Assembly: GCA_035515795.1 (NCBI GenBank)
Contig: DATJAY010000038.1
Span: 1 to 51,604, forward strand
DNA from: Candidatus Acidiferrales bacterium
Lineage (GTDB): Bacteria; Bacteroidota; Ignavibacteria; Kryptoniales; JAKASW01
DNA: 51,604 bases
Direction: 5' to 3'
The first letter of the stretch is position 1. Every line of letters starts with the position of its first letter. This document shows, piece after piece, positions 14,457 through 34,565 of this stretch. The position numbers and the translations under genes are program-made. Below the pieces are notes generated by a model. That model was not told the origin of the DNA and did not search any database. It saw only the letters and a list, made by a program, of their open reading frames with translations.

Positions 14457-14880
14457 TCTGCAATTCTCAATTATAAATACCGATTTCAGATTTTTGATCT
14501 GGCTTTGAATTCTTTGGGGGAGGAATTAACTGACCGCGATGAGATGGTTGATCAGTTAAATAGCGCTCCACCCGCTGTTCCATGTTCAGCCAGATGACAG
14601 TCTGCAAACTTTTTGTCTCTCCCGGATCAACATTCTACTAGATTCGGGATCCCGAGCAACTTTCTAATTCCTGATCGGGGCAGCCCAACTGCAAATATCG
14701 AAGACGAACTTGCAGTTTCGGCGGCGACTCCTTTCCTCATGCTTCGCGGGCTCTTCGTGCCTCGACACAAGTACTAATAATCACCGCGCCTCTATTCAAC
14801 TACGGAACAAATATAGCCGTTCGTTGTTATAAATGCAAAGTATTCCTAAACTTGTCGTAAGAAAACAATCGGTGGATAGA
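14457..14880. other. Divergent intergenic region between dapB and the propeller/phosphoesterase gene
   Basis: No gene is supported here. On the minus strand a TATAAT (14475-14470) sits only 14-20 bases before the dapB ATG and lacks a good -35. The stretch holds a 12-bp palindrome (TCGGGATCCCGA at 14644-14655) and an 8-bp inverted repeat (AACTGCAA at 14687-14694, TTGCAGTT at 14710-14717), neither with a T-run. Either could be an operator or chance. Confidence 0.3.
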
Positions 14881-20662: not shown

Positions 20663-23113
20663 ATGAAAAGAATCGTTGCCGTCATTGCGCTTATTTACGT
20701 GATTGCAGCGGCCGCTGCTTCCGGACAGGATATTTTAGTAAATCCGCAAAACCAGAAATATCTTTTCACTGCCGGAACGGATGAGACGCAGGCATTCCTC
20801 TACAACCCTGCATGCCTCGGTCTTTACAGCCGCGGCGGAGTCTTGGACGGATATTATTTTTATCCTACTAAAAGCATTCTCAATTATCCGAGCACTGTCT
20901 TCCATGATATCGGGATTTTCGGACAAGCTGGAAAGTTCGGGCTGGCATACAGAAATGCCGAGAATTCCGGCTCAACGGTATTCGGAATCCCGGGACCATT
21001 AGAAGAAAACTTGAACCAGTATTCTGTCGGACTCGGATTTGGAAATCAGGGGATTGCAGTCGGAGCTTCGTTGTCTCTTACGGATATCACCGGCGTTGGA
21101 TCAAGATGGCTTCCGGCTATCGGGTTGATCGTCCGTCCGGACCGATATATAAGTCTCGGCGCGGCTTACCATAATTTTTCGGATGCACCGTTTGGCGGGC
21201 ACGCGATCGAAAAAACGGCAAACCTCGGCGTTGGGATTCGGCCGTTTGGGACAGATTTTTTGACCTTAAGTGCAGATCTCATCACTCCCGTTCATAATAA
21301 CGGTTTCAAAATAGGTATTGATGTTGAGCCGATACCTGGATTAAAAGTCTATGGCATATATGACCTATCCGGGTACACACCATCCACGTATGTTCTTGGC
21401 TTTGGGGGTTCATACGGGAACCCCGACTACGTGTGGACAAATTCTGTTTCAATTGGTGTCAGCCTCAATTTTAGTCCGCATATTCATATTGAAGGTGCAT
21501 CGAGTTACCAGAGAGACAAATACGCTGCGACCTACGGACGCATCATGGTCACCTCGCAGGAGATGCCCACGATCTTGTTTGACCATAGAATTGCGGAGAT
21601 AGTCATAAGAGGAAATATTCCCGACGAACGTCAGCAGTCATTTCTGTTCTTCAAATCTCCGAAAAACCTTCTGGATTATATCGATGAGATAAAAAAATGT
21701 GGCGATGATTTATCTATCGACGCATTGATCCTGAAAATATATCCTTTCTCGACGCACGAATCCTTCTTTGCCCTCTCCAGTGAGACTCAAGAACTTGCAG
21801 ATGCAGTGGAGTATGTTCGCTCGAAAGGAAAGAATGTGTACGCCTACTTGACAGACGACAGCGGTGTGAACGAAGTCTATCTGGCGAGCGCTGCAGATAA
21901 AATCTACATGGCCCCGGTTGCTTTCATCAGCGGCTACGGTGTCAATATGGATTTGATAAGACTCAAGGGTCTGTTCGATAAACTTCACATATCGTGGAAC
22001 GCGCAGACAGCCGGCAAGTACAAATCTACTTTTCATACAATCTATACAGATTCCGCATCGCCGGAACAGGCAAAGCTCATTCAAGGGCTCGTCGACGATA
22101 TTTATTCGCAGATGATAAAGCAGATCGAAGTGAACCGCAACATTACCATGGATGATTCCTTCAAGGCTGCTATTTCCGGGATCCTTTCCTCGCGTGAAGC
22201 TGCGCGGCTTCACCTCATCGACCAGGTTGCTTACTACGATGAGTTCAAGAAAGATGTCAGCGCTGGTCTGCCTGAGGTCGATCCATCGAGGCTCTGCAGG
22301 TATGAGACGAGATGGGGGACAAGACCCGAAATTGCAGTGATCGGGGTTTATGGCAACATCGTAACCGGTGAGAGCGCACCGCCCTCTCCATTCCCGATTC
22401 CGTTTTTGGGAAGCGACCGTGCAAGCGGTTCCGAAACCGTAGCGGCGCAAATCAAGGCCGCGGCGGAAGATGCCGACATAAAGGCGATTGTTCTCAGAGT
22501 AAACAGCGGAGGTGGATCTGCGCTTGCGTCCGATGAAATTTATAACGCGATAAATGATGCTGAAAAGAAAAAGCCGGTTATCGCTTCCTTCGGTAACGTA
22601 GCCGCAAGCGGAGGATATTATGTGGCAGCGGGAGTCAGGAAGATTTTCGCCGAACCTGCAACGTTGACGGGAAGCATCGGAGTTGTAATTGCTTTTCCTG
22701 TGCTTACAGATTTTCTCGAAAAGGATCTCGGCAGTAATGTTGAGGAATACCGCGCGGGGAGAAACTCTGACATACTCTCGCCGTTCCATCGATGGGACGA
22801 TTCCGATTTGAAATACGTCGATAAATTTCTTAACGAGACCTATAATGACTTTAAAACGAAAGTTGCGGAAGGCAGGAAACTCAGCATGGATCGCGTCGAA
22901 GAACTGGCGCAGGGGAAAGTTTATACCGGAATACAGGCGAAAAGCTTTGATTTGATCGATGAGTACGGCGGGCTCGATAAAGCGATCCAATATGCAGCGG
23001 ATGCGGCAGGGATCTCGCGGGATTACACAGTCCGAATGTTCATGGTGCCCGGGATCGGATTTCCGAACCTGCTGGGAATTGATGCGATGATTTTGAAGAG
23101 CTTTTCAAATTGA
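20663..23113 (+). CDS. sppA: Signal peptide peptidase SppA-like S49 protease with N-terminal outer-membrane-barrel-like domain
   Basis: This 816-residue protein has a signal peptide (to about residue 22), then about 290 residues of alternating beta-strand-like segments (AFLYNPACLG, GIFGQAGKFGLAYRN, YISLGAAYHNF, SIGVSLNFSP) resembling PorV/FadL-type barrels. Two S49 domains follow. The first (about 320-560) holds the GKYKS motif with Lys454; the second (about 590-800) has NSGGGSALASDEI and VAASGGYY with Ser649. These are the expected Lys/Ser dyad of SppA. SppA normally clears cleaved signal peptides at the inner membrane. Here the barrel-like part suggests outer-membrane anchoring with the protease in the periplasm, which is inference. 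ATG 20663 follows AGGAGG at 20654-20659; a start at 20591 would add 24 residues and is less likely. Confidence 0.85.
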   Translation: MKRIVAVIALIYVIAAAAASGQDILVNPQNQKYLFTAGTDETQAFLYNPACLGLYSRGGVLDGYYFYPTKSILNYPSTVFHDIGIFGQAGKFGLAYRNAENSGSTVFGIPGPLEENLNQYSVGLGFGNQGIAVGASLSLTDITGVGSRWLPAIGLIVRPDRYISLGAAYHNFSDAPFGGHAIEKTANLGVGIRPFGTDFLTLSADLITPVHNNGFKIGIDVEPIPGLKVYGIYDLSGYTPSTYVLGFGGSYGNPDYVWTNSVSIGVSLNFSPHIHIEGASSYQRDKYAATYGRIMVTSQEMPTILFDHRIAEIVIRGNIPDERQQSFLFFKSPKNLLDYIDEIKKCGDDLSIDALILKIYPFSTHESFFALSSETQELADAVEYVRSKGKNVYAYLTDDSGVNEVYLASAADKIYMAPVAFISGYGVNMDLIRLKGLFDKLHISWNAQTAGKYKSTFHTIYTDSASPEQAKLIQGLVDDIYSQMIKQIEVNRNITMDDSFKAAISGILSSREAARLHLIDQVAYYDEFKKDVSAGLPEVDPSRLCRYETRWGTRPEIAVIGVYGNIVTGESAPPSPFPIPFLGSDRASGSETVAAQIKAAAEDADIKAIVLRVNSGGGSALASDEIYNAINDAEKKKPVIASFGNVAASGGYYVAAGVRKIFAEPATLTGSIGVVIAFPVLTDFLEKDLGSNVEEYRAGRNSDILSPFHRWDDSDLKYVDKFLNETYNDFKTKVAEGRKLSMDRVEELAQGKVYTGIQAKSFDLIDEYGGLDKAIQYAADAAGISRDYTVRMFMVPGIGFPNLLGIDAMILKSFSN

Positions 23114-23373: not shown

Positions 23374-24555
23374 ATGAAGAAAAGATTATTTACACCTGGG
23401 CCGACGCCGATTCCGGAGAGCGTTATGCTCGCTATGGCGGAGCCAATCATTCATCACAGGAATCCAGAATTTGTTTCAGTATTAACAAGTGTCAATGAAA
23501 ATTTAAAATATCTTTTTCAGACGAAGAATGAAGTACTCACGCTGACGAGTTCAGGCACGGGCGCGATGGAAGGATCCGTTGCAAATCTTCTATCCCCGGG
23601 GGACAAAGCAATATTTGTAAACCTTGGAAAATTCGGCGAGCGTTGGGGAGAAATCATGAAAGCTTACGGCGTCGAGCCGATAGAGGTCAAGGTCGAGTGG
23701 GGAACTGCTCCATCACCCGAACTTCTTCTTGACACGCTGAAAAAAAATCCAACTGCGAAGGCGGTTTTTTTAACTCACAGTGAAACTTCTACAGGAGTTT
23801 TCACAAACATCAAAGAAATAGCCGCGGCGATCCACGCCAAGTACGACATCGCCGTTGTGGTCGATGGCATAACCTCGGTCGGGTGCCATGAGATGCACTT
23901 CGATGACTGGGGATTGGATACGATTGTGACGGGCTCGCAAAAGGGTTTGATGATTCCACCCGGACTCGCGTTTGCCGCACTGAGCGAACGGGCGAAGAAG
24001 ATGATGGAGACATCGAAGCTCCCGAAGTTCTACTTCAGTTTCAAAAAAGCATTGAAAGCGCATAAGGACAACGATACGCCGTTTACTCCTGCGATCACTC
24101 TTGTAGTGGGTCTTGAGAAAGCATTGCGGATGATCCGGGAAGAAACCGTGGAACACATCTGGCTTCATCATAAGGTTTTGTCCGAGGCCGTGCGGAACGG
24201 ATGCGAGGCGATCGGGCTGAAACTTTTCGGTGCACCAGCGTCGCATGCCGTGACAGCGGTATGTGTTCCCGATGGAGTCGAGTATTCCAAATTCAATAAA
24301 ATTCTAAAACAGAAATACGGAATCACAACCGCCGGAGGCCAGGAGCATCTGAAAGGGAAAATTTTCAGGGTCTCGCACCTCGGATACTATGACGAGGTGG
24401 ACATAGTCGGAGTTGTCGCTGCGCTTGAGTGGACGCTCCATGATTTGAACTTCAAGTTTGAAGCGGGCTCGGGAGTTGCGGCCGTACAAAAGACTTTTGC
24501 CAAACACACGGCGGAAATGGCGCCCGTAGCGCAGACATCGGAGGTGGCAAAATGA
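23374..24555 (+). CDS. Class V aminotransferase (alanine-glyoxylate / serine-pyruvate / phosphoserine type)
   Basis: This 393-residue PLP enzyme begins with FTPGPTPIPESV and has IHHRNPEF, TSSGTGAMEGSVANLL, DGITSVG (Asp binding the pyridine nitrogen) and TGSQKGLMIPPGL, where the Lys forms the Schiff base with PLP. The family swaps amino groups among alanine, serine, glyoxylate and pyruvate. Its stop overlaps the serA start (ATGA at 24552-24555), which argues strongly that it works with SerA. It could transaminate 3-phosphohydroxypyruvate in place of SerC, as some relatives in archaea and deep-branching bacteria are thought to do. This is inference. The C-terminus has an extra Ala/Thr-rich tail. 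GGAG at 23362-23365 supports the start. Confidence 0.88.
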   Translation: MKKRLFTPGPTPIPESVMLAMAEPIIHHRNPEFVSVLTSVNENLKYLFQTKNEVLTLTSSGTGAMEGSVANLLSPGDKAIFVNLGKFGERWGEIMKAYGVEPIEVKVEWGTAPSPELLLDTLKKNPTAKAVFLTHSETSTGVFTNIKEIAAAIHAKYDIAVVVDGITSVGCHEMHFDDWGLDTIVTGSQKGLMIPPGLAFAALSERAKKMMETSKLPKFYFSFKKALKAHKDNDTPFTPAITLVVGLEKALRMIREETVEHIWLHHKVLSEAVRNGCEAIGLKLFGAPASHAVTAVCVPDGVEYSKFNKILKQKYGITTAGGQEHLKGKIFRVSHLGYYDEVDIVGVVAALEWTLHDLNFKFEAGSGVAAVQKTFAKHTAEMAPVAQTSEVAK

Positions 24556-26129
24556 AAGTCCTCGTCACAGATCCAATCGAGCAGATTTGCACGGATATTC
24601 TTCAGAAAGAAGGGATCCAGGTGGATGCTAAGCCCGGGTTACCTCCGGATGAGATTAAGAAAATCATCGCCTCTTATGACGGCTTGATCGTACGAAGCGG
24701 GACCAAAGTTACGGCGGATATTATTTCTGCAGCGAACGGTTTGAAAGTCATAGGCCGCGCCGGTGCGGGGGTCGATAATATCGATGTCCCTGCTGCGACA
24801 AGAAAGGGAATCGTGGTTCTGAACACGCCGGGCGGTAACACAATATCCACCGCCGAGCACACCATGGCACTCATGATGGCACTCGCGAGGAATATCCCTC
24901 AGGCATTCCGCGACCTTCAGGGCGGAAAATGGGAGCGGAAGAAGTACACCGGTACAGAATTGATGAGCAAGACTCTCGGTGTTATCGGTCTCGGCAAAGT
25001 CGGAAGAGAAGTTGCTACCAGGGCGAAGGCGTTCGGAATGAACATAATCGGGTACGATCCTCTTTTGGCTGCCGACATTGCTACCAAGCTGGGGATAGAG
25101 CTAGTTTCGTTAGATGAAATTTACAGGCGATCCGATTTTATAACCGTGCATACTCCTCTAACGGAAGAAACACGCGGCATCCTGGGAGACAAAGCCTTCT
25201 CGGCATGCAAGCAGGGCGTTCGCGTTATCAATTGCGCGAGAGGGGGGATCATCGATGAAGATGCACTTCTCAAGGCGCTCGAGAGCGGGAAAGTTGCCGG
25301 AGCCGCTTTTGACGTATTCGTGAAGGAACCGCCGGGTGATCATCCTCTTCTCAAACATCCGAAGGTTATCGCGACTCCTCATCTCGGTGCCTCGACGGAG
25401 GAAGCCCAGGAAAAAGTCGCGAAACAGATCGGCGAAGAGCTGGCCGACTTTTTCAAGGGAAGGGGAATTGTCGGTGCAGTAAACATCATCGACTACCAGA
25501 GCGCGGTAAGCGACGAACTGCGTGCGTATCTGGTCCTCGCCGAGAAGATTGGTTCGCTCCACGCGCAACTTTTGACGGGCAAGGTGAAATCTATAACGGC
25601 TTCTTATCGTGGTGCACTGCTTCAAAATTCCTGCGAGCTTCTTTCCACCGCGGTGCTGAAAGGGTTGCTTGATAAAATGATGTACGCGCCCGTGAACTTT
25701 GTCAACGCTGCCTTAATTGCGAAAGAGATGGGAATCAGCGTAAGCGAGAAAAAAGATCAGGACGGGAAGCATCATTCTCACCTTTTGAGTGTAGAAGTAC
25801 AAACCGAAGATGAGGAGAAAAATATTTCAGGAACGGTTTTCGGTACTTCCGAGATGAGAGTAGTTGGGATTGACGGGTTCCACTTCGAGATTGCTCCGGA
25901 AGGCCATTTGCTGTTCTATTCGAACAAAGACAGGCCTGGAATGCTGGCGGCGGTCGGCAGCTTGCTCGCGTCGGCAAATATCAACATAGCAGGCATGTCG
26001 TTAGGCAGGTCCGCTCCCGGTGAGAAGGCCCTTGCAGTTATGAGCGTTGACGGCGACATACCTGAACCGGTGCTGAAAGAAATCTCAAAAATCTCGGGAG
26101 TCTTTGAGGTGAAGGCAGTGAAGTTATGA
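24552..26129 (+). CDS. serA: D-3-phosphoglycerate dehydrogenase
   Basis: SerA oxidises 3-phosphoglycerate to 3-phosphohydroxypyruvate, the first step of serine synthesis. The 525-residue length fits the long form with an intervening domain and C-terminal ACT domain. Motifs are GRAGAGVDNID, NTPGGNTISTAEH, the NAD-binding GLGKVG, NCARGGIIDE (substrate Arg), FVKEPP (Glu) and ATPHLGAST (catalytic His). The ACT domain begins near residue 455 (FYSNKDRPGMLAAVGSLLASANINI) and in the family binds serine as feedback inhibitor. It overlaps the aminotransferase gene by 4 bases, so expression is coupled, and a branched terminator follows at once. Confidence 0.96.
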   Translation: MKVLVTDPIEQICTDILQKEGIQVDAKPGLPPDEIKKIIASYDGLIVRSGTKVTADIISAANGLKVIGRAGAGVDNIDVPAATRKGIVVLNTPGGNTISTAEHTMALMMALARNIPQAFRDLQGGKWERKKYTGTELMSKTLGVIGLGKVGREVATRAKAFGMNIIGYDPLLAADIATKLGIELVSLDEIYRRSDFITVHTPLTEETRGILGDKAFSACKQGVRVINCARGGIIDEDALLKALESGKVAGAAFDVFVKEPPGDHPLLKHPKVIATPHLGASTEEAQEKVAKQIGEELADFFKGRGIVGAVNIIDYQSAVSDELRAYLVLAEKIGSLHAQLLTGKVKSITASYRGALLQNSCELLSTAVLKGLLDKMMYAPVNFVNAALIAKEMGISVSEKKDQDGKHHSHLLSVEVQTEDEEKNISGTVFGTSEMRVVGIDGFHFEIAPEGHLLFYSNKDRPGMLAAVGSLLASANINIAGMSLGRSAPGEKALAVMSVDGDIPEPVLKEISKISGVFEVKAVKL

Positions 26130-26139
26130 ATGACGACGG

Positions 26140-26216
26140 AAACCTTGCGAAGGATTTGAGAACCAGATGAACTTTCTGGTTTCACGCACGCTGAACTTTC
26201 GCGAGGTTTTCTCTTT
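26140..26216 (+). terminator. Branched rho-independent terminator after serA
   Basis: A 12-bp outer stem (AAACCTTGCGAA at 26140-26151 with TTCGCGAGGTTT at 26198-26209, one T-G wobble) encloses a perfect 7-bp hairpin (AACCAGA at 26161-26167, TCTGGTT at 26175-26181). A T-rich tail runs to 26216. Confidence 0.75.
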
Positions 26217-26261: not shown

Positions 26262-26290
26262 TTGACAAAGCGCACACGGCAGATTATATT
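26262..26290 (+). promoter_or_regulatory. Strong promoter of the SusC/SusD leader
   Basis: TTGACA at 26262-26267 and TATATT at 26285-26290 are separated by exactly 17 bases. The -10 can also be read as TATATTTC, 7 of 8 to the Bacteroidota TAnnTTTG element, with TTG 20 bases upstream. It is the best promoter in the window. Predicted transcription starts near 26297. Confidence 0.75.
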
Positions 26291-26356
26291 TCAGCGAAAT
26301 TTATGCTGGTGCCGGAGCGGAAAAAAGGGTTTCATTTACTTTTAGGCTTTTCAAAC

Positions 26357-26398
26357 GAGGGAGTATTATGAGAATTAATACTCCCTCATTTTTCTTTT
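26357..26398 (+). terminator. Perfect 12-bp terminator hairpin inside the SusC leader (candidate attenuator)
   Basis: GAGGGAGTATTA at 26357-26368 pairs perfectly with TAATACTCCCTC at 26376-26387 around a 7-base loop, followed by ATTTTTCTTTT. It lies about 60 bases behind the promoter at 26262-26290 and 150 bases before the SusC start, with no gene between promoter and hairpin. It should end most transcripts as a roughly 100-base RNA unless read-through is regulated. Confidence 0.8.
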
Positions 26399-26504
26399 AG
26401 CTTAATCCATCAACCATTGCGGAGGTTTATTGTTGGCTGATATTTCCTTTTGTTTCATTTTTTCATTTCTCACCTACTTACAAATCCCACATCAAGGAGG
26501 TAAT

Positions 26505-26555
26505 ATGACTCGTAGGAAAACTCTAACCACAAACTGCAAGGAGGTATTCAGATGA
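26505..26555 (+). CDS. Short leader peptide, 16 residues, coupled to SusC
   Basis: ATG at 26505 follows a near-perfect Shine-Dalgarno AAGGAGG at 26494-26500. It reads 16 codons (MTRRKTLTTNCKEVFR) to a TGA at 26553-26555 that overlaps the SusC ATG (ATGA). SusC has its own AAGGAGG at 26538-26544, inside this frame. The same frame is open further back to TTG at 26430 with GGAGG at 26421-26425, which would give 41 residues with a hydrophobic first half. The peptide matches no family I recognise. Threonine and basic residues are enriched, but there is no run of one codon as in classic amino-acid attenuators. A role in coupling or sensing translation is inferred. Confidence 0.5.
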   Translation: MTRRKTLTTNCKEVFR

Positions 26556-29500
26556 AGAAGAATCTACCGCTTGCTTCGTTACTTGTACTGTGTCTCCTTT
26601 CTTTTACCGCCGGTGTCTCACTGGCACAGACAGGTACAATCAAAGGAAAAATCACCGATAGTCAAACTGGTGATGTTCTCCCCGGGGCAACAGTCATTCT
26701 CGAAAAGACCGCTCTTGGTGCGGCGACTAACGCTACCGGAGATTACACGATTGAAGGCGTGCCCGCTGGTAGCTACCAGTTGACGGCTCGTTTTGTCGGT
26801 TATCAAAGCGGAACTGTAAGCATACAGGTCAAAGAGGGCGAAACAGCTACCCATGACTTTCAATTGTCACCGGTTGGATACACGACCAACCCCGTCGTCG
26901 TCAATGCGATCGGACTGCAGACTCCCCGTGAGCAGATGGGAACAGCCGTATCGTCGGTAGCTGGAAAGTCATTGACGTTGTCGGGTGCAACTGATATTGC
27001 CACAAGTCTTGCGGCGCAGGCTCCAGGCTTGAACACCTATGAGAGCAATGGAGACCCGGGCTCGGGAACGAGGATGGTTCTCCGCGGAGCTCGCACCCTT
27101 CAGGGAGATAACCAGCCGCTGATCATACTCGATGGCGAGCCGATAATTGACGCCTCGATATATAACCAGGTTACGTTTAACGCAAACTATACGAACGCCG
27201 GAGTTTCCGGATATTCCACACTCGATCAAATCAACCCCGAGGATATTCAATCCGTAGAGGTTTATTCCGGACCATCCGCTGCCGCTATTTGGGGATCAAG
27301 AGGAGCGAACGGCGTCATCGTAATAACAACGAAATCTGGAGTGTTCAATCCGAGCAAAAAAATAAATATCTCCGTGCGCGAGAACACTCAAATGGATGAA
27401 CTCCTTCGGGAGGAACCTCTCCAAGCCGATTTCGGACAGGGCGATAACGGTAATTATATTTGGAATAACAGATACAGCTGGGGAGATAGAATCTCGCAGA
27501 GGTCCGGCAAGCCGGATTCCCTCGCTATTCCCAGCGTTCCCACTTCCCAAATAATCCAGAAGAACTCAAAGACAGTGTATGATCATGGAACCGAGCTCTT
27601 TCATAAACCCATTTCAACTGAATATGGAGTAACTTTCAGTGGAGGAGATCAAGCAGGGACCTTCTACCTTGACGTCGATAGACTCGGCCAAACCGGAATC
27701 GTCCTTGCAAATTCTGATTTCTCGAGAACGTCTATAAAGGGTTCGGTGAGTCGGACGTTTAGCGAAAACGTCACTCTCCGTCTCGATGCGACGTATGTGA
27801 ACAGCGCCATAGACAGAACTCAGCAGGGTTCAAACCTCGCTGCACTTATGCTGGGCGCTTATAGATGTCCACCTGATTTTAACAACCAGCCTTACATCGT
27901 CAACTACGTCGATCCTGCAACCGGAATCGTTACCGCCAATTCGCAAAGGGGATTCCGCGATGGTAACGGAAGTCCATACGCGTCTGGAGTATATGACAAT
28001 CCGCTCTTCAGCGTCTACGAGGATCCGACGACATTCCTGGACAATCGGGTCATCGGTAATCTGCAACTTTCTTATGATCCGATGGATTGGCTGGACTTCA
28101 CTTATAGAGCCGGAGTGGACTATTTAGGCGACAGGAACACGAGCTTCCTGAATTATTTCGATTGGACGGCCCCGCAGTCTCCTCAGGCGCCTAACTTCTA
28201 TGCCGGCCAATACAGCGATAACGTCTTCTCCCAATACCAGATCAACACCGATCTCCAGGGCCGGGCAAAACACGATTTCAGCAGCGACTTCAGCGGAAAC
28301 CTGATGCTGGGAATCCACCTGGATCATCAGCAATACAACTCCATTACCAACATCGTTCAATCCCTGTTGATACCCACCGGTCCGCCATCTCTTGGCAACG
28401 CATCCACTCCGCTGCCTCCCTACCAGGGTTGGACGATGCAGCGCGATGCTGCAATGTACGGACAACTGGACCTGAGTATGTATAACGAGCTATTCGTAAG
28501 CTTGTCGGGAAGGGATGAAACCTCGAGCACGTACGGACCAGAAAGTGCAGGTCTGTATTTCTATCCATCCGTTAGTGCCGCTTGGCAGTTTACCCAGCTC
28601 CCACTATTTGAAGGGAACGACATTTTGTCCTTTGGCAAATTGAGATTGGCATATGGTGAAGCTGGCGTACCGCCTCCACTATATAGCTCGAACACGTACT
28701 TTATCGGGAATCAAGCTGTTACCAATGGTTGGGGATCCGGCTTGAATCCTCAATACTACGGTGGCGGTGCATCGATATACCCCGACCAAGGTCTCAACTT
28801 GATGGGTAATGCAGGGATAGCCCCAGAGAAAACTACTGAACTCGAAGGTGGTCTCGACCTAAGACTTTTTGGCGACAGGGCTACACTTTCTGTAAGTGAA
28901 TATAGCGACAAGACCACAGGTGCGATTGTTCCGATTACTGTGCCGCAGTCGACCGGCTTTGGATATATCTACAAGAACGCCGTCAACTTGACAAACGTTG
29001 GGACGGAAGTTCAACTCAACGTCGAATGGCTGCGCATCGGAGAGTTCTCCTGGTCAACGCTTTTGAATTGGTCAACCAACAAGAACAAAGTCACGAGCAT
29101 GCCTGCGGGAACGCAATACGTAATTCTAAATGGATTCACGGATCCATTTTCTGCCGCAGTTCTTAACCAGCCGGTCGGCGTGATCTTCGGGACGCATTGG
29201 ATGCGGACAGGTGACAGTGCGAATACCGCCAATGGTCTCCCAGTCACGAGTGGTAAGCTGATTCTCGATGCGAATGGCTTCCCACAGATAGGCAACACGG
29301 ATGCAATTATAGGAGATCCAAATCCGAAGTGGCGTGCCGGCATCGGGACTACATTCCGATACGAAAGACTGACGTTCAGCGTGCTGTTTGATATCAAACA
29401 TGGCGGCCAGGTTTGGGATGGAACAGAAGGCGCGCTTGACTTCTTCGGAAGATTCGGCGATCAGAACTGGTGGACCAAGATCAGCGCTCAGCAAGCTCAG

Positions 29501-29947
29501 ACTTTGGTGAATTGGAACGGACAGACTGTAGCTTCAATTGTGGCAGCCGGAACCTATGGCAATTCTTACGTTAAGAATTCGGATGGGACGTACAACTTTA
29601 GAGGGTACGTAAAAGACTTCGGAGGCGGACCGGTAATCATCGATGAGACGTGGTTCCGCTTTGGACCCGGTTCGAGTTTGACCGGAGGTCCTTCTGAACA
29701 ATTTGTCGAGGATGCGAGCTACGTCAGGTTAAGAGAGCTTTCGTTGTCATATCTGATTCCGCTGCATTCGCTAGGATTCGAAAGCCTGCAAATCAGTGTG
29801 GTTGGCAGAAACCTTGCTCTTTGGACGAAGTACAAAGGGCAAGATCCGGAAGTCAATCTGACGGGACCAACTACCGGTCAAGGTCTTGATTACTTTATCA
29901 ATCCGAGTATCAAGACATGGATTCTTTCACTGCAGGTTAATTATTAA
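26552..29947 (+). CDS. SusC/RagA-family TonB-linked outer-membrane transporter
   Basis: This 1131-residue receptor imports a ligand, usually an oligosaccharide or peptide, together with a SusD-type lid lipoprotein. It has a signal peptide (to about residue 26, SLAQ), a CarboxypepD_reg-like domain (about 28-110: GTIKGKITDSQTG, GATVILE, GSYQLTARFVGY), a plug (about 125-265, with MVLRGARTLQGDNQPLIILDG, NPEDIQSVEVYSGPSAAAIWGSRGANGVIVITT) and a large barrel with a C-terminal beta-signal ending LQVNY. The length and the next gene identify the SusC class. It is preceded by a promoter, an attenuator-like hairpin and a coupled leader peptide. No glycoside hydrolase, sulfatase or sigma/anti-sigma pair is next to it, so the substrate is unknown. 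Confidence 0.95.
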   Translation: MKKNLPLASLLVLCLLSFTAGVSLAQTGTIKGKITDSQTGDVLPGATVILEKTALGAATNATGDYTIEGVPAGSYQLTARFVGYQSGTVSIQVKEGETATHDFQLSPVGYTTNPVVVNAIGLQTPREQMGTAVSSVAGKSLTLSGATDIATSLAAQAPGLNTYESNGDPGSGTRMVLRGARTLQGDNQPLIILDGEPIIDASIYNQVTFNANYTNAGVSGYSTLDQINPEDIQSVEVYSGPSAAAIWGSRGANGVIVITTKSGVFNPSKKINISVRENTQMDELLREEPLQADFGQGDNGNYIWNNRYSWGDRISQRSGKPDSLAIPSVPTSQIIQKNSKTVYDHGTELFHKPISTEYGVTFSGGDQAGTFYLDVDRLGQTGIVLANSDFSRTSIKGSVSRTFSENVTLRLDATYVNSAIDRTQQGSNLAALMLGAYRCPPDFNNQPYIVNYVDPATGIVTANSQRGFRDGNGSPYASGVYDNPLFSVYEDPTTFLDNRVIGNLQLSYDPMDWLDFTYRAGVDYLGDRNTSFLNYFDWTAPQSPQAPNFYAGQYSDNVFSQYQINTDLQGRAKHDFSSDFSGNLMLGIHLDHQQYNSITNIVQSLLIPTGPPSLGNASTPLPPYQGWTMQRDAAMYGQLDLSMYNELFVSLSGRDETSSTYGPESAGLYFYPSVSAAWQFTQLPLFEGNDILSFGKLRLAYGEAGVPPPLYSSNTYFIGNQAVTNGWGSGLNPQYYGGGASIYPDQGLNLMGNAGIAPEKTTELEGGLDLRLFGDRATLSVSEYSDKTTGAIVPITVPQSTGFGYIYKNAVNLTNVGTEVQLNVEWLRIGEFSWSTLLNWSTNKNKVTSMPAGTQYVILNGFTDPFSAAVLNQPVGVIFGTHWMRTGDSANTANGLPVTSGKLILDANGFPQIGNTDAIIGDPNPKWRAGIGTTFRYERLTFSVLFDIKHGGQVWDGTEGALDFFGRFGDQNWWTKISAQQAQTLVNWNGQTVASIVAAGTYGNSYVKNSDGTYNFRGYVKDFGGGPVIIDETWFRFGPGSSLTGGPSEQFVEDASYVRLRELSLSYLIPLHSLGFESLQISVVGRNLALWTKYKGQDPEVNLTGPTTGQGLDYFINPSIKTWILSLQVNY

Positions 29948-29961
29948 GAAGGGAGCAGACA

Positions 29962-31377
29962 ATGAAAACAATTTGCAAATATGCAATTTCAGCCCTGTTG
30001 GTTGCGGCGGTTATAGCCGGCTGCAAATCATTTACCAAGGGTTACGAAAATAATCCGATTGCTTCGGCGTCGGCGCCTGCTTCCACCATATTCACCAGTT
30101 CGCAGGTTTCCTTCGATCTGTTTATGGAAGGCTTTTCCTCGTATGTCGCGGCATTGTGGTCGCAGGAAGCGACAGGCACCGTGTCCCAGTTTATCGGATA
30201 CTATGTTTACACCGCGTCAAGCCAGGACTTCAATAACGACTGGGGACTCGCCTACAACAATGTGGGATATGATCTTCGCCTGGTCGAAGCTCAGGCAGCG
30301 AAGGATGGTAATCCTACACTTGAAGGAGCTGCCAAAGTGGTCGAGGGAATCCAGATGGGAACGGTCGCGGATCTTTGGGGCGATGTCCCATATTCACAGG
30401 CGTTCCAGCCAACAGTTTACCTGCAGCCGAAGTACGACCCTCAGGATTCTGTGTATTCTCGGGTTCAGGCCACTCTCGATGCAGGCATTGCTGAGCTAAC
30501 GCAAGGTGCATCGGATGTTCCCGGAGATGCTTTTTCCTCTGCGGGAAGTAATCCAGAATGGGTCAAGGCGGCACACACTGCGAAGGCTAGATTCCTCATG
30601 CATTCCGCAAGGCATGGTGGCTACGCTGCCAACGCTGCTGTCCTGGCTCAGGTTATTGCGCAATGTCAGCAGGGAATCCTGGCCACCGACGGCTCGGAGG
30701 ATTTCACGTTCTTGCATACTGGCGGAGTCTGGAATGGCGACCTGAATCTCTGGAATTCATTCCTTACTGTGGACAGAGCCGGATACATGGATGCGAGTGC
30801 CACATTTGTGATTCCGATGATGAATGCTGCGAAACTCGATGGCAAAACAAACTACAGCGGAAGGTTGGCCTATTATTTCAACGCCGCAGGAACTGACTTC
30901 AACACTTCAGCGACGGGCGCTTATGGACCGACCACCAGCTTCCCGATCTTCAGAGCATCTGAGACCCATCTATTATGGGCCGAAGCAGCCGCAAGAACGG
31001 GGGACGATGCTACCGCACTTGCACAGCTGAATCTCGCAAGGGAATATAACAACGCTGTATTTGCTGAGACCTCTGCCGATTACGCTGCAACTGATGCCCC
31101 GGTGGCAACCTCCGCCGCGTTGCTGCAGACTATCGTCAATGAGGAATATGTATCACTGATGTCTCAGATCGAGGTGCTGAGTCTGATGCGCAGGGTGGAT
31201 TACCAAATCCAATATAAGGATTCGACAGGAGCGACTGTCAGCATTGCTCCGATTACCGGCGCACAATTCCCACAGCGTTTCATTTACCCGATCCAGGAAA
31301 TCAACGCGAATCCAAACGCTGCGGTTATTTCCACGACTGTAAATATGTATTCCAAGACCTGGGCGAATCAGCCGTGA
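29962..31377 (+). CDS. SusD/RagB-family nutrient-binding outer-membrane lipoprotein
   Basis: This 471-residue protein has a lipoprotein signal with lipobox VIAGC (Cys21). The body is helical with SusD features: a WG-rich segment near residue 140 (GTVADLWGDVPYSQAF), the helix AKARFLMHSARHGG, and the C-terminal LLQTIVNEEYVSLMSQIEVLSLMRRVDY followed by FPQRFIYP. SusD lies on top of the SusC barrel at the cell surface and captures the ligand. It starts 15 bases after SusC with GGGAG ahead of the ATG and ends at a strong terminator. It belongs to the SusD-like 2 type subfamily by appearance, which is not certain. Confidence 0.93.
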   Translation: MKTICKYAISALLVAAVIAGCKSFTKGYENNPIASASAPASTIFTSSQVSFDLFMEGFSSYVAALWSQEATGTVSQFIGYYVYTASSQDFNNDWGLAYNNVGYDLRLVEAQAAKDGNPTLEGAAKVVEGIQMGTVADLWGDVPYSQAFQPTVYLQPKYDPQDSVYSRVQATLDAGIAELTQGASDVPGDAFSSAGSNPEWVKAAHTAKARFLMHSARHGGYAANAAVLAQVIAQCQQGILATDGSEDFTFLHTGGVWNGDLNLWNSFLTVDRAGYMDASATFVIPMMNAAKLDGKTNYSGRLAYYFNAAGTDFNTSATGAYGPTTSFPIFRASETHLLWAEAAARTGDDATALAQLNLAREYNNAVFAETSADYAATDAPVATSAALLQTIVNEEYVSLMSQIEVLSLMRRVDYQIQYKDSTGATVSIAPITGAQFPQRFIYPIQEINANPNAAVISTTVNMYSKTWANQP

Positions 31378-31404: not shown

Positions 31405-31453
31405 AAAGCCTCGTCGAGGTCTTAATTGACAGCGACGAGGTTTTATTTTTTTT
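31405..31453 (+). terminator. Rho-independent terminator after the SusD-like gene
   Basis: CCTCGTCG at 31409-31416 pairs with CGACGAGG at 31433-31440. The stem can be extended by AAAG/TTTT, and TTTTATTTTTTTT follows. This ends the SusC/SusD transcript. Confidence 0.88.
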
Positions 31454-31516
31454 AGGTTTCTCTTGGTGACAAGGATAGATCGTTTCAAAAAAGTGTGTCG
31501 GGAGTCCCCTTGGGGC

Positions 31517-31548
31517 TTGACCTTGACCGACATCATGATTTACATTTA
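31517..31548 (+). promoter_or_regulatory. Candidate promoter of the orphan lipoprotein gene
   Basis: TTGACC at 31517-31522 lies 21 bases (from TTG) before TACATTTA at 31541-31548, 7 of 8 to the Bacteroidota TAnnTTTG element. It would give a leader of about 30 bases before the ATG at 31588. A second TTGACC directly follows the first. Confidence 0.4.
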
Positions 31549-31587
31549 CTTATGTTGAGCGTGTCGAAGCAAATCAGGCAGGCGACT

Positions 31588-32013
31588 ATGATTAAATTCG
31601 GTGGAGCGATTTTTTTTGTAATCTCGATGTTTGTTTGGAGCGGTTGTTATGACACCGTGCAAATAACGGGGGATCAGGTCGGACAACTGGATGGTTATCA
31701 AGACATTACGGCTGTTGTAGATACGCAGGGGACAGTCTCCTCTTATCATTTCGCACGAGGGATGTATAGAGTCGTGCGTGATACTCTGGTTGGGACGGGA
31801 ACTACAACGACGATGATGGGTGAACTAACTCAGAGCGGCATTTCAATTCCATCCTCAAGGATAGCATACGTCGAGGTCGATAAATTAAACATGCCCCGGA
31901 CATTACTCCTCGCAGGAGGCGTAGTGGCGGCGACAACCGCAATGGTGCTTTCGGCTGCTTCCAATTCCGGTTCACCCGGGTCCTCGGGCTCGGGTCCACA
32001 GCCGCCGCGCTAG
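31588..32013 (+). CDS. Small predicted lipoprotein of unknown function
   Basis: This 141-residue protein begins with MIKFGGAIFFVISMF and a possible lipobox VWSGC (Cys20; Trp at -3 is unusual). The middle is beta-rich with repeated V-E/V-D-T segments, a hydrophobic stretch (LLLAGGVVAATTAMVLSAA) lies near residues 104-122, and the tail is Gly/Ser/Pro-rich. The family is not recognised. ATG at 31588 is preferred because the signal sequence begins there; an open frame extends back to 31495 but would bury it. It lies between the SusD terminator and the leader of the PIG-L-like gene, probably as a separate transcript. Confidence 0.55.
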   Translation: MIKFGGAIFFVISMFVWSGCYDTVQITGDQVGQLDGYQDITAVVDTQGTVSSYHFARGMYRVVRDTLVGTGTTTTMMGELTQSGISIPSSRIAYVEVDKLNMPRTLLLAGGVVAATTAMVLSAASNSGSPGSSGSGPQPPR

Positions 32014-32258: not shown

Positions 32259-34565
32259 ATGACGATGAATGCGTCACTTAAATGTTGTCTCATCTCTTTA
32301 TTGACCCTCTTTGCACGGCCAGTGGCATATTCTCGGGAGTCCCCGTACTTCTCCGGCGAAGGTGCCAAGGCGATCGCACAAGAAATTCGTGAGATTAAAA
32401 ACCCGAGCGTATATCTCGTGATCACGGTCGCCCCGGGCTTTGAGGATCTTGCTTCGATCGCGAATTTCAGGATAGGAAGGGGCGCCGCTGTTTCGGTCGC
32501 ATACATTACTAACGGCGAAGATATCCCCAGCGATCTGAACGGTGAAATGTTTTATCAACTGGCTTCGCGAAGAAAGGAAGAAGCATACAACGTCCTTTCT
32601 TATCTCGGAGTGCAGTCATTTTTTCTTAATGTTCCTGTCGACGAATTTTCTGCAGGAGAAGGATGCTTCCATCCTACTTCCCGTCTCGACAAAATATTGA
32701 ATGACCGTCTTGACAGTGTGATATCTGAAGTCAAACCTGACATCATAGTTCTTGATCATGATCCTCTTTCGGCTGGCAAACAGTCGTCGCGTTGTGCATA
32801 TTTTCAAGATCTCGTTCTAAGAAAAATAAGTGCGGAAAAGGAAGCGTCGTCATGGATAGTACCGCGTCTTTTCGCTCAGACAGATCAGCGAATAAGGACT
32901 GCCGGTATCCCTGTCGAACAAAGAGATCCGATCTGGTCGAAGAGCTATTCTGAAATGGCGCTCGAAGCAGAAAAATCCTACGAAAGTTTGAGGTACCAGA
33001 TCCGTTTGTGGGACGAGAATGAATCCCATTGTTATGTTCAACTTTATCCGACTGCAGCAAAATCGCCTTTCCCGTTAGACAATCGGTTACCGGAGATTGG
33101 AAAAGCATTGAGAACCTTGATTCCCGCCGTAAGATCAGTGTTCTCTATTGAGAAAGTTTCCGGCCGCGGAAAACAGCTTGTGATGCTTCATGGCGCAATA
33201 GCCAGGGTCGATAATTTTATTTCCCCATATGAGCATTCTCTCGGGAAAAGCGATCTTCGAGTGTTGGCAACATGGAAACTCGGGCTTGAGAGACTTCGAT
33301 GTGACATCTTAGGCGCATCAATCTCATGGTACGTAAGTGATACGGTCGTAACACCAGTCCAGGATTTTTTTCTTCGATTTGGGAAACTCGGCGGAGTATT
33401 ATTTAAAGGCAAAACACGGGTATTGTTTCCGGGAGTCATTCAGAAGCAATGGGTTGTGAATGAAAATCCAAAAGAATATTACGACTGGAATGATACTACA
33501 ACATTTAGGGTGCTTTCTCCTCGTTCGATAGCTCTGAATTCGGCCGAAACGCCGGAAGGGTTTGAGGCTATGCAGGTGAGGACCCCGTTCGTATTTATGG
33601 TGGCACATCAGGATTCAAATCCAAATTATGATTTCATGTACAGGCAGGAGATACCGCTTATCATCGCGCCTCTTCGCTCCGTTGAAGTGCTAACACCGCA
33701 GGTCGCTGTTTTCCGTGACACGAGTATCTGCGTCCGCTTTAAAAGTAACGTCCGGGATAAGTCAGGCGGAGTATTTTATGTGAGTGACCCGATCGTTTCA
33801 TCGCCTCAAAAGAGAGTGGAGTTGCCCGGGAAAAATTGCGCTGTAACGGATACTCTCCCATTGACATGGGATACGCTTTTGGTAGCTCCTCACGAAGTAA
33901 AGATCTGGGCAACCCATGGGATTCCGATCGGGAATTTTACAGCGCATTCCCTCGATGTAAAGGTAAACATCAAGGGAAATGTCGGACTCTGTTCGGTAGT
34001 CGAGAACAGCCCTGTACAAATCGCACTTCGCAGACTCGGTGTCCGTGCAATATTTTTTGACAAGACTGAATCTCTTGATAAAGATTTATCGAAATATTCC
34101 GAAATAATAATAGACCGGTTCTCTTTTCAAAAATTTTTCGAATTGTTTGAACGGCACGGGTTAATCGCGCAATGGCTCAACAAAGGAGGCAGGCTAATTG
34201 TCCTTCCGCAGTATGGATTGCAGCAACCGAGGTCGTTTGGCGATGATGAGGTAAAATTTCGTTATCTGCCTGCTGTCGGCTGTAACGAGAAATTAAATAT
34301 CTGTTCATCTGACAAAATGTTTCAGCTCCCGAATAAGATCAACAAAAGAAGTTTTGGCGACGGGCATTTCGTCGAGTCATACGGGGAAGTGGCAGGCAAG
34401 GCAGCCGGCTCGAGGGTTTTGATTAGTTTGGGTAAACGCGTTTTACTTTTAGAAAAAAAGATTGGGAACGGTGAAATTTTCTATTGCACCTTGAACCTCT
34501 ATCCGAGATTGCTTGAAATCAATCAGAGTTCTTATCGGCTCCTGGCGAATTTATTGAGTAATTGA
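32259..34565 (+). CDS. PIG-L (LmbE)-like protein with degenerate active site and large C-terminal region
   Basis: This 768-residue exported protein has a hydrophobic N-terminus, then a PIG-L-like Rossmann domain (about 48-270: VYLVITVAPGFEDLASI, VSVAYITNGED, PDIIVLDHDP). PIG-L enzymes remove acetyl groups from N-acetyl sugars using zinc bound by HPDD and a later His. Here HPDDE reads G60-F-E-D-L and the later HPDH position reads KQSS, so both histidines seem lost. The middle (about 270-580) is beta-rich, and the C-terminal 200 residues look like a GATase1/ThuA-type flavodoxin-like domain. It may bind rather than cleave glycans, or use another metal site. AAGGAG (32239-32244) is 14 bases before ATG 32259; ATG 32265 in the same frame is an alternative. 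Confidence 0.65.
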   Translation: MTMNASLKCCLISLLTLFARPVAYSRESPYFSGEGAKAIAQEIREIKNPSVYLVITVAPGFEDLASIANFRIGRGAAVSVAYITNGEDIPSDLNGEMFYQLASRRKEEAYNVLSYLGVQSFFLNVPVDEFSAGEGCFHPTSRLDKILNDRLDSVISEVKPDIIVLDHDPLSAGKQSSRCAYFQDLVLRKISAEKEASSWIVPRLFAQTDQRIRTAGIPVEQRDPIWSKSYSEMALEAEKSYESLRYQIRLWDENESHCYVQLYPTAAKSPFPLDNRLPEIGKALRTLIPAVRSVFSIEKVSGRGKQLVMLHGAIARVDNFISPYEHSLGKSDLRVLATWKLGLERLRCDILGASISWYVSDTVVTPVQDFFLRFGKLGGVLFKGKTRVLFPGVIQKQWVVNENPKEYYDWNDTTTFRVLSPRSIALNSAETPEGFEAMQVRTPFVFMVAHQDSNPNYDFMYRQEIPLIIAPLRSVEVLTPQVAVFRDTSICVRFKSNVRDKSGGVFYVSDPIVSSPQKRVELPGKNCAVTDTLPLTWDTLLVAPHEVKIWATHGIPIGNFTAHSLDVKVNIKGNVGLCSVVENSPVQIALRRLGVRAIFFDKTESLDKDLSKYSEIIIDRFSFQKFFELFERHGLIAQWLNKGGRLIVLPQYGLQQPRSFGDDEVKFRYLPAVGCNEKLNICSSDKMFQLPNKINKRSFGDGHFVESYGEVAGKAAGSRVLISLGKRVLLLEKKIGNGEIFYCTLNLYPRLLEINQSSYRLLANLLSN

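Follow-up and report, generated by a model that had tools for sequence, protein, structure and literature searches.

The leader that separates serA from a SusC/SusD operon in the stretch of DNA analyzed here (the window, 51,604 nt, from a 4.08-Mb genome in 39 contigs) contains a near-consensus promoter and, shortly downstream, an intrinsic terminator whose hairpin is conserved by pairing among related genomes. We propose that this leader is a translation-gated attenuator, in which transcription would terminate by default and would be read through when a ribosome on a 22-codon upstream open reading frame (uORF1) covers the hairpin, a reading to which we give a probability of roughly 55%. The genes around the leader lie in the order serC, serA, leader, SusC, SusD, terminator (Table 1), with a hairpin downstream of SusD marking the probable end of the operon and another, just past serA, setting this gene apart from the leader.

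Table 1. Positions of the features in and around the leader, numbered from the first nucleotide of the window
Feature	Position	Strand	Remarks
serC-type aminotransferase	23374-24555		5′ of serA
serA (phosphoglycerate dehydrogenase)	24552-26129	+	TIGR01327, E 1.4e-201; Pfam
serA terminator-like hairpin, then CUCUUUAU	26138-26211	+	Fold z -4.81; 0/200 shuffles equally stable
Promoter TTGACA-N17-TATATT	26262-26290	+	Downstream TCAGCGAAATTTATGCTGG conserved along with promoter
Predicted transcription start	26297 (about ±2)	+	Inferred from -10 position
uORF1, 22 codons, MLVPERKKGFHLLLGFSNEGVL then stop	26303-26371	+	Homologous frame in relatives
Terminator hairpin GAGGGAGTATTA-TGAGAAT-TAATACTCCCTC	26357-26387	+	Perfect 12-bp stem (26357-26368 / 26376-26387), 7-nt loop
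T-run ATTTTTCTTTT	26388-26398	+	Completes intrinsic terminator
Possible uORF2 (weak), 41 codons	26430-26555	+	TTG start after GGAGG (26421-26425); in frame with uORF3
uORF3, 16 codons, MTRRKTLTTNCKEVFR then stop	26505-26555	+	Shine-Dalgarno AAGGAGG, 26494-26500
SusC/RagA TonB-linked outer-membrane protein	26552-29947	+	TIGR04056, E 9e-143
SusD-like lipoprotein	29962-31377	+	PF12771, E 1.6e-21
Hairpin CCTCGTCG...CGACGAGG, then T-rich run	31409-31440	+	Read from sequence; probable end of operon

The promoter is the top sigma-70-like site between positions 22000 and 32000, scoring 11/12 when its -10 element is compared with TATAAT. The start predicted from it lies about 60 bases before the hairpin and would yield a terminated RNA of about 100 nt, in agreement with the first-pass annotation of this DNA, which had proposed the same promoter and the same distances. 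That annotation had also remarked that SusC/SusD has no other visible promoter, and this holds: promoter-like pairs between 26388 and 26545 reach scores of just 8/12, the same interval contains no TAnnTTTG box, and a search by sequence for a separate start between 26398 and 26552, which the annotation had named as an outcome that would refute its proposal, recovered no second promoter.

To place the leader in a comparative setting, we used a sequence-only model, R1, built from the promoter and the start of uORF1. This model finds 24 leader copies in 13/13 genomes of the genus, with one to three copies per genome; its only match beyond the genus is weak, confined to the promoter, and located in a sister family. 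Each of the 13 genomes has one copy situated 3′ of serA, within about 20-600 nt. The operon that follows this serA-linked copy begins with SusC in the window and in genomes G003, G009 and G010; in G007 and G011 it consists of a small lipoprotein and a TonB/CarboxypepD receptor, and in G005 it encodes a different kind of receptor. Because the downstream operons vary, and because in G004 the SusC homologue, on contig 21, is preceded by another type of leader, we conclude that the leader belongs to the serA site rather than to SusC/SusD. The earlier description of a SusC/SusD element thus survives in that the element does precede SusC in the window, and fails in that its attachment is to the site 3′ of serA, where other outer-membrane operons follow it in relatives. 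Two broader assignments were rejected: a general feature of TonB genes, as the promoter-plus-terminator leader occurs only at this SusC among 20 CarboxypepD/TonB genes scanned in the same genome (1/20), and a repeat or mobile element, as the genome contains the region only once.

The terminator hairpin has a folding z-score of -5.46, with 0/200 shuffled sequences folding equally well, and its T-run ends 153 bases before the SusC start, which bears out the perfect 12-bp stem and T-run about 150 bases ahead of SusC described in the first-pass annotation. When a strict terminator is defined as at least 8 pairs, at least 4 of them GC, followed by a T-run and located in the first 125 nt, such a structure is found in 5/13 serA-linked leaders versus 0.32 expected from dinucleotide shuffles, and in 0/8 of the other leader copies, which are not serA-linked. 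A sixth serA-linked leader (G012) has a clear terminator whose stem includes 3 GC pairs, and all six intrinsic terminators occupy the same position. The other 7/13 serA-linked leaders, among them that of G007 with a hairpin and no T-run, are without a clear hairpin plus T-run, and the attenuator is thus not essential to the locus.

Alignment of seven hairpins (the six above and that of G007) retains 12 pairs, of which 8 exhibit at least one double compensatory change, counts that are biased towards structure since the hairpin sequences were cut by hand before alignment. The outer stems GA:TC, CCGCAAA:TTTGCGG and CGCA:TGCG are plainly unlike in sequence, and all are paired. In the six leaders the hairpin alone is worth between -9.4 and -21.8 kcal/mol, with T-runs likewise differing in strength. 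Loss of the hairpin or T-run in relatives had been named at the outset as grounds for abandoning the attenuator idea; several relatives retain both at this site, and that idea gains from a promoter and terminator conserved by position and a hairpin conserved by covariation. The order of promoter, intrinsic terminator and a gene with no other visible promoter is that of intrinsic-terminator attenuators in general, as is the maintenance of the terminator by pairing rather than by sequence. We therefore regard it as very probable, judging from sequence comparison, that a real conserved terminator resides in this leader.

The first-pass annotation had placed no gene between promoter and terminator, which is wrong in detail: uORF1, for which homologous frames are present in relatives, runs into the hairpin, and the annotation had overlooked this frame along with the chain of ORFs that continues to SusC and the serA terminator at 26138-26211. 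There is no Shine-Dalgarno sequence ahead of uORF1, and the 5′ untranslated region predicted for it is about 6 nt long. Its TGA stop codon (26369-26371) coincides exactly with bases 1-3 of the terminator loop, and in five other leaders, where the frame is fixed by homology, the stop is located 5, 5, 6, 10 and 13 nt 5′ of the hairpin. For single leaders the shuffle probability of such placement is 0.28-0.46, and the product over the six loci is 0.003, a value that is only suggestive because these loci are related and not independent. In 3/6 leaders with a terminator (G009, G003 and G012), the conserved frame starts with GTG only, with no ATG.

A stronger indication that uORF1 is probably translated comes from nine leaders without a terminator, in which it spans 32, 38, 38, 39, 39, 39, 39, 41 and 41 codons. 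Lengths of 38-41 codons are thus found in 8/9 copies, a clustering as tight as which arose in 0/2000 shuffles, whereas nucleotide identity past codon 10 is 21-62% for all pairs except one. A near-constant length despite divergent sequence speaks in favour of translation of the frame. Codon-position substitutions in two close pairs reveal no clear third-position excess of the kind expected from purifying selection, and we therefore do not claim that the peptides are conserved; the seven uORF peptides searched have no Pfam match.

The uORF1 frame also bears on whether the terminator might act as a passive attenuator, removing a fixed share of transcripts and holding SusC/SusD at a low basal level while uORF1 has no regulatory role. 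A conserved terminator that varies in T-run and hairpin strength and is missing from several relatives is what would be expected of a tunable, dispensable brake, but the frame and its stop at the hairpin recur across leaders of otherwise different sequence, and we consider the passive reading unlikely.

No competing antiterminator was found in the six leaders. Their best folds lacking the terminator are 12-23 kcal/mol worse and leave the hairpin arms unpaired, which argues against a switch made of RNA only and indicates that a bound factor or a ribosome would be needed to prevent the hairpin from folding. Thus, the alternative pairing across 26357-26387 that the first-pass annotation had envisaged was not recovered. 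The covariance-model search that it had suggested likewise yielded no Rfam family in the window leader (E values up to 5, the best matches being chance) or in 17 related loci, and a known riboswitch class is accordingly rejected.

For Escherichia coli, it has been reported that ribosomes almost completely suppress a terminator located several nucleotides past a stop codon, that bringing the stop closer to the terminator, from 28 to 5 nt, lowers termination efficiency from about 90% to less than 10%, and that beyond about 27-30 nt the ribosome effect is gone and the terminator acts at full strength (PMC4824070). Taken together with the recurring placement of the uORF1 stop, this distance effect makes ribosome occlusion the most likely route to read-through. 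Transcription would begin near 26297, and RNA polymerase would soon reach the terminator at 26357-26398. On bare RNA the hairpin would form, as no alternative fold competes with it, and most transcripts would be terminated at about 100 nt. A ribosome that started at the near-leaderless frame at 26303 and remained close behind the polymerase would run into the hairpin, since the stop codon lies in the loop (or, in relatives, just before the 5′ arm), and by holding one arm unpaired it would allow transcription to go on into SusC/SusD. The main weakness of this translation-gating model is the catch-up limit: over roughly the first 100 nt a ribosome is usually unable to draw level with RNA polymerase unless a pause site is present (PMC4824070), and the leaders yielded no pause site that is conserved among them.

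Downstream of the terminator, uORF3 has a strong Shine-Dalgarno sequence and ends in an ATGA overlap between its stop codon and the SusC start, and the SusC Shine-Dalgarno sequence (26538-26544) is located inside it. In relatives, SusC is likewise preceded by a 16-codon frame with the ATGA overlap (MKRRRTQITNRKEAFK then stop). This arrangement suggests that SusC is probably translated by coupling to uORF3, which would be the final step of the proposed pathway. The candidate uORF2 is put forward on the basis of a Shine-Dalgarno sequence and TTG that relatives have in a comparable position.

Alternatively, a trans-acting protein or ligand might govern read-through, either an RNA-binding protein such as CsrA or a specialised NusG of the LoaP/UpxY type. 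The genome encodes a CsrA homologue (E 8.3e-24) and a second NusG-like protein, AAGGAGG/GGA motifs are present at both start sites, and in several relatives GTCGTGC motifs are repeated on both sides of the terminator. However, the terminator loop contains no GGA, the window leader contains no GTCGTGC, and neither an Rfam family nor a competing RNA fold was found. The second NusG gene resides on another contig, between genes for a Wzz/tyrosine-kinase-like protein and an epimerase-like protein (identified by eye), and not beside the operon. We view control of this type as rather improbable. The GTCGTGC motif itself occurs up to three times around the terminator in loci L129, L112, L111 and L033: inside uORF1, immediately 3′ of the T-run, and within a small hairpin loop (GTACTACG-GTCGTG-CGTGGTAC in L129).

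A promoter and a terminator 60 nt apart are also what typically marks an intergenic small RNA, and such RNAs are known in Bacteroides (PMC7366714). The leader could then produce a free-standing RNA of about 100 nt, or the mRNA of a small peptide, acting elsewhere, with SusC/SusD transcribed from an undetected start. Against this stand the failure to find a second promoter 5′ of SusC and the wide variation of the promoter-to-hairpin RNA among relatives, which is unlike a typical trans-acting small RNA. Moreover, sister leaders keep the promoter without the terminator, and the promoter in those leaders probably serves the downstream operon. We thus consider a separate small RNA quite doubtful. 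Although terminator-like sites are common under loose criteria (8 found in 10 kb versus 11 expected), a chance hairpin or a second serA terminator is highly improbable, given the 12-bp stem with its z-score, a position and pairing conserved with compensatory changes, covariation that already contradicts chance, and the terminator that serA has of its own 5′ of the promoter, which makes the structure at 26357-26398 no serA remnant.

The translation-gated reading of the window leader may be one instance of something broader. On this less likely view, the window represents a branch of a lineage-specific leader family whose outer-membrane operons would be headed by a near-leaderless ORF of fixed length that has a constant start, M-L-A-x-E-L-x-K-D/N, and otherwise varies freely, with additional SD/TTG short ORFs behind it in several relatives. 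Ribosome passage along such a chain of ORFs, and not the peptides, might then govern both termination and how accessible the receptor gene is; the window would have swapped a long first ORF for a short, terminator-gated one.

Several other elements were observed. The genus also has another type of leader (L034:13382 onward, L032:6016, L008:846, L108, L109, L106 and L110), in which a uORF1 of near-constant length is followed by further short ORFs in series with Shine-Dalgarno/TTG starts (up to four by eye), several of the ORFs beginning M-x-x-x-E-L-x-K-D/N. SusC leaders of the sister family (L009, L010, L011, L012 and L014) are different: in them, pairing of GCACCT...GGAGGTGC masks a Shine-Dalgarno-like GGAGG. 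Three of these leaders (L009, L011 and L014) also contain, further 5′, GCGCACCT, which could serve as an alternative partner for this stretch. Within the window, a 172-aa ORF with no Pfam match (31495-32013, + strand) lies 3′ of the operon terminator, between SusD and a PIG-L-like gene at 32259. Ahead of the latter gene, the segment 32173-32240 contains CTTGACAAAGC, the same sequence as the -35 region of the leader promoter, without a proper -10 element and immediately 5′ of a strong hairpin and T-run (AAGGTCGTC...GACGACCTTTTTTATTTT); R1 gives no match there. A lysine riboswitch (Rfam RF00168, E 1.4e-21) is located at 14553-14802 on the - strand, 5′ of a minus-strand dapB, dapA, dapD-type cluster.

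SusC/SusD pairs rank among the major nutrient importers of Bacteroidota, and the control known for them relies mostly on sensor/regulator pairs, sigma/anti-sigma pairs and antisense RNAs. In the literature searched, coverage of which was partial, we found no account of such a leader ahead of SusC/SusD. If the proposal is correct, a conserved, promoter-proximal and probably translation-gated terminator would represent a cis-only, translation-linked control layer for SusC/SusD in a lineage known chiefly through metagenome bins. The short-ORF leaders of the genus would also provide a ready comparative set for asking whether ribosome traffic alone sets receptor expression.

Among systems of the same phylum, long 5′ untranslated regions with several short ORFs that recall leader peptides, for example that of BT_4401, have been described in Bacteroides thetaiotaomicron (PMC7366714), and structured 5′ regions in Flavobacterium psychrophilum (PMC9723704). 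The leader examined here resembles these in its short ORFs or structures, and leader-peptide attenuation is suggested there too; the available parts of the two reports present predictions based on RNA-seq and do not describe the layout of terminator and uORF seen here. DonS-type RNAs of Bacteroides are likewise small RNAs associated with a SusC operon, but they are divergently encoded and antisense to susC, whereas the RNA considered here has the sense orientation and lies in the leader. As in the leader-peptide attenuators of trp, his and ilv operons, a short ORF is followed by an intrinsic terminator; on inspection, however, uORF1 has no run of codons for a single amino acid, and no antiterminator pairing is present, and an attenuator of the trp/his type was rejected on the former ground. 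A further parallel is with the pyrBI attenuator of E. coli, in which a leader ORF reaches the terminator and the coupling of ribosome and polymerase decides the outcome. Both systems have an intrinsic terminator that a leader ORF enters (in the window) or just precedes (in five relatives), both do without an antiterminator fold, and in both a trailing ribosome would give read-through. The operon in the window serves outer-membrane uptake rather than pyrimidine synthesis and has no link to UTP. Of the U-rich pause tract of pyrBI, a possible counterpart is present in the window before the hairpin, at about 26329-26352, with none evident by inspection in the relatives.
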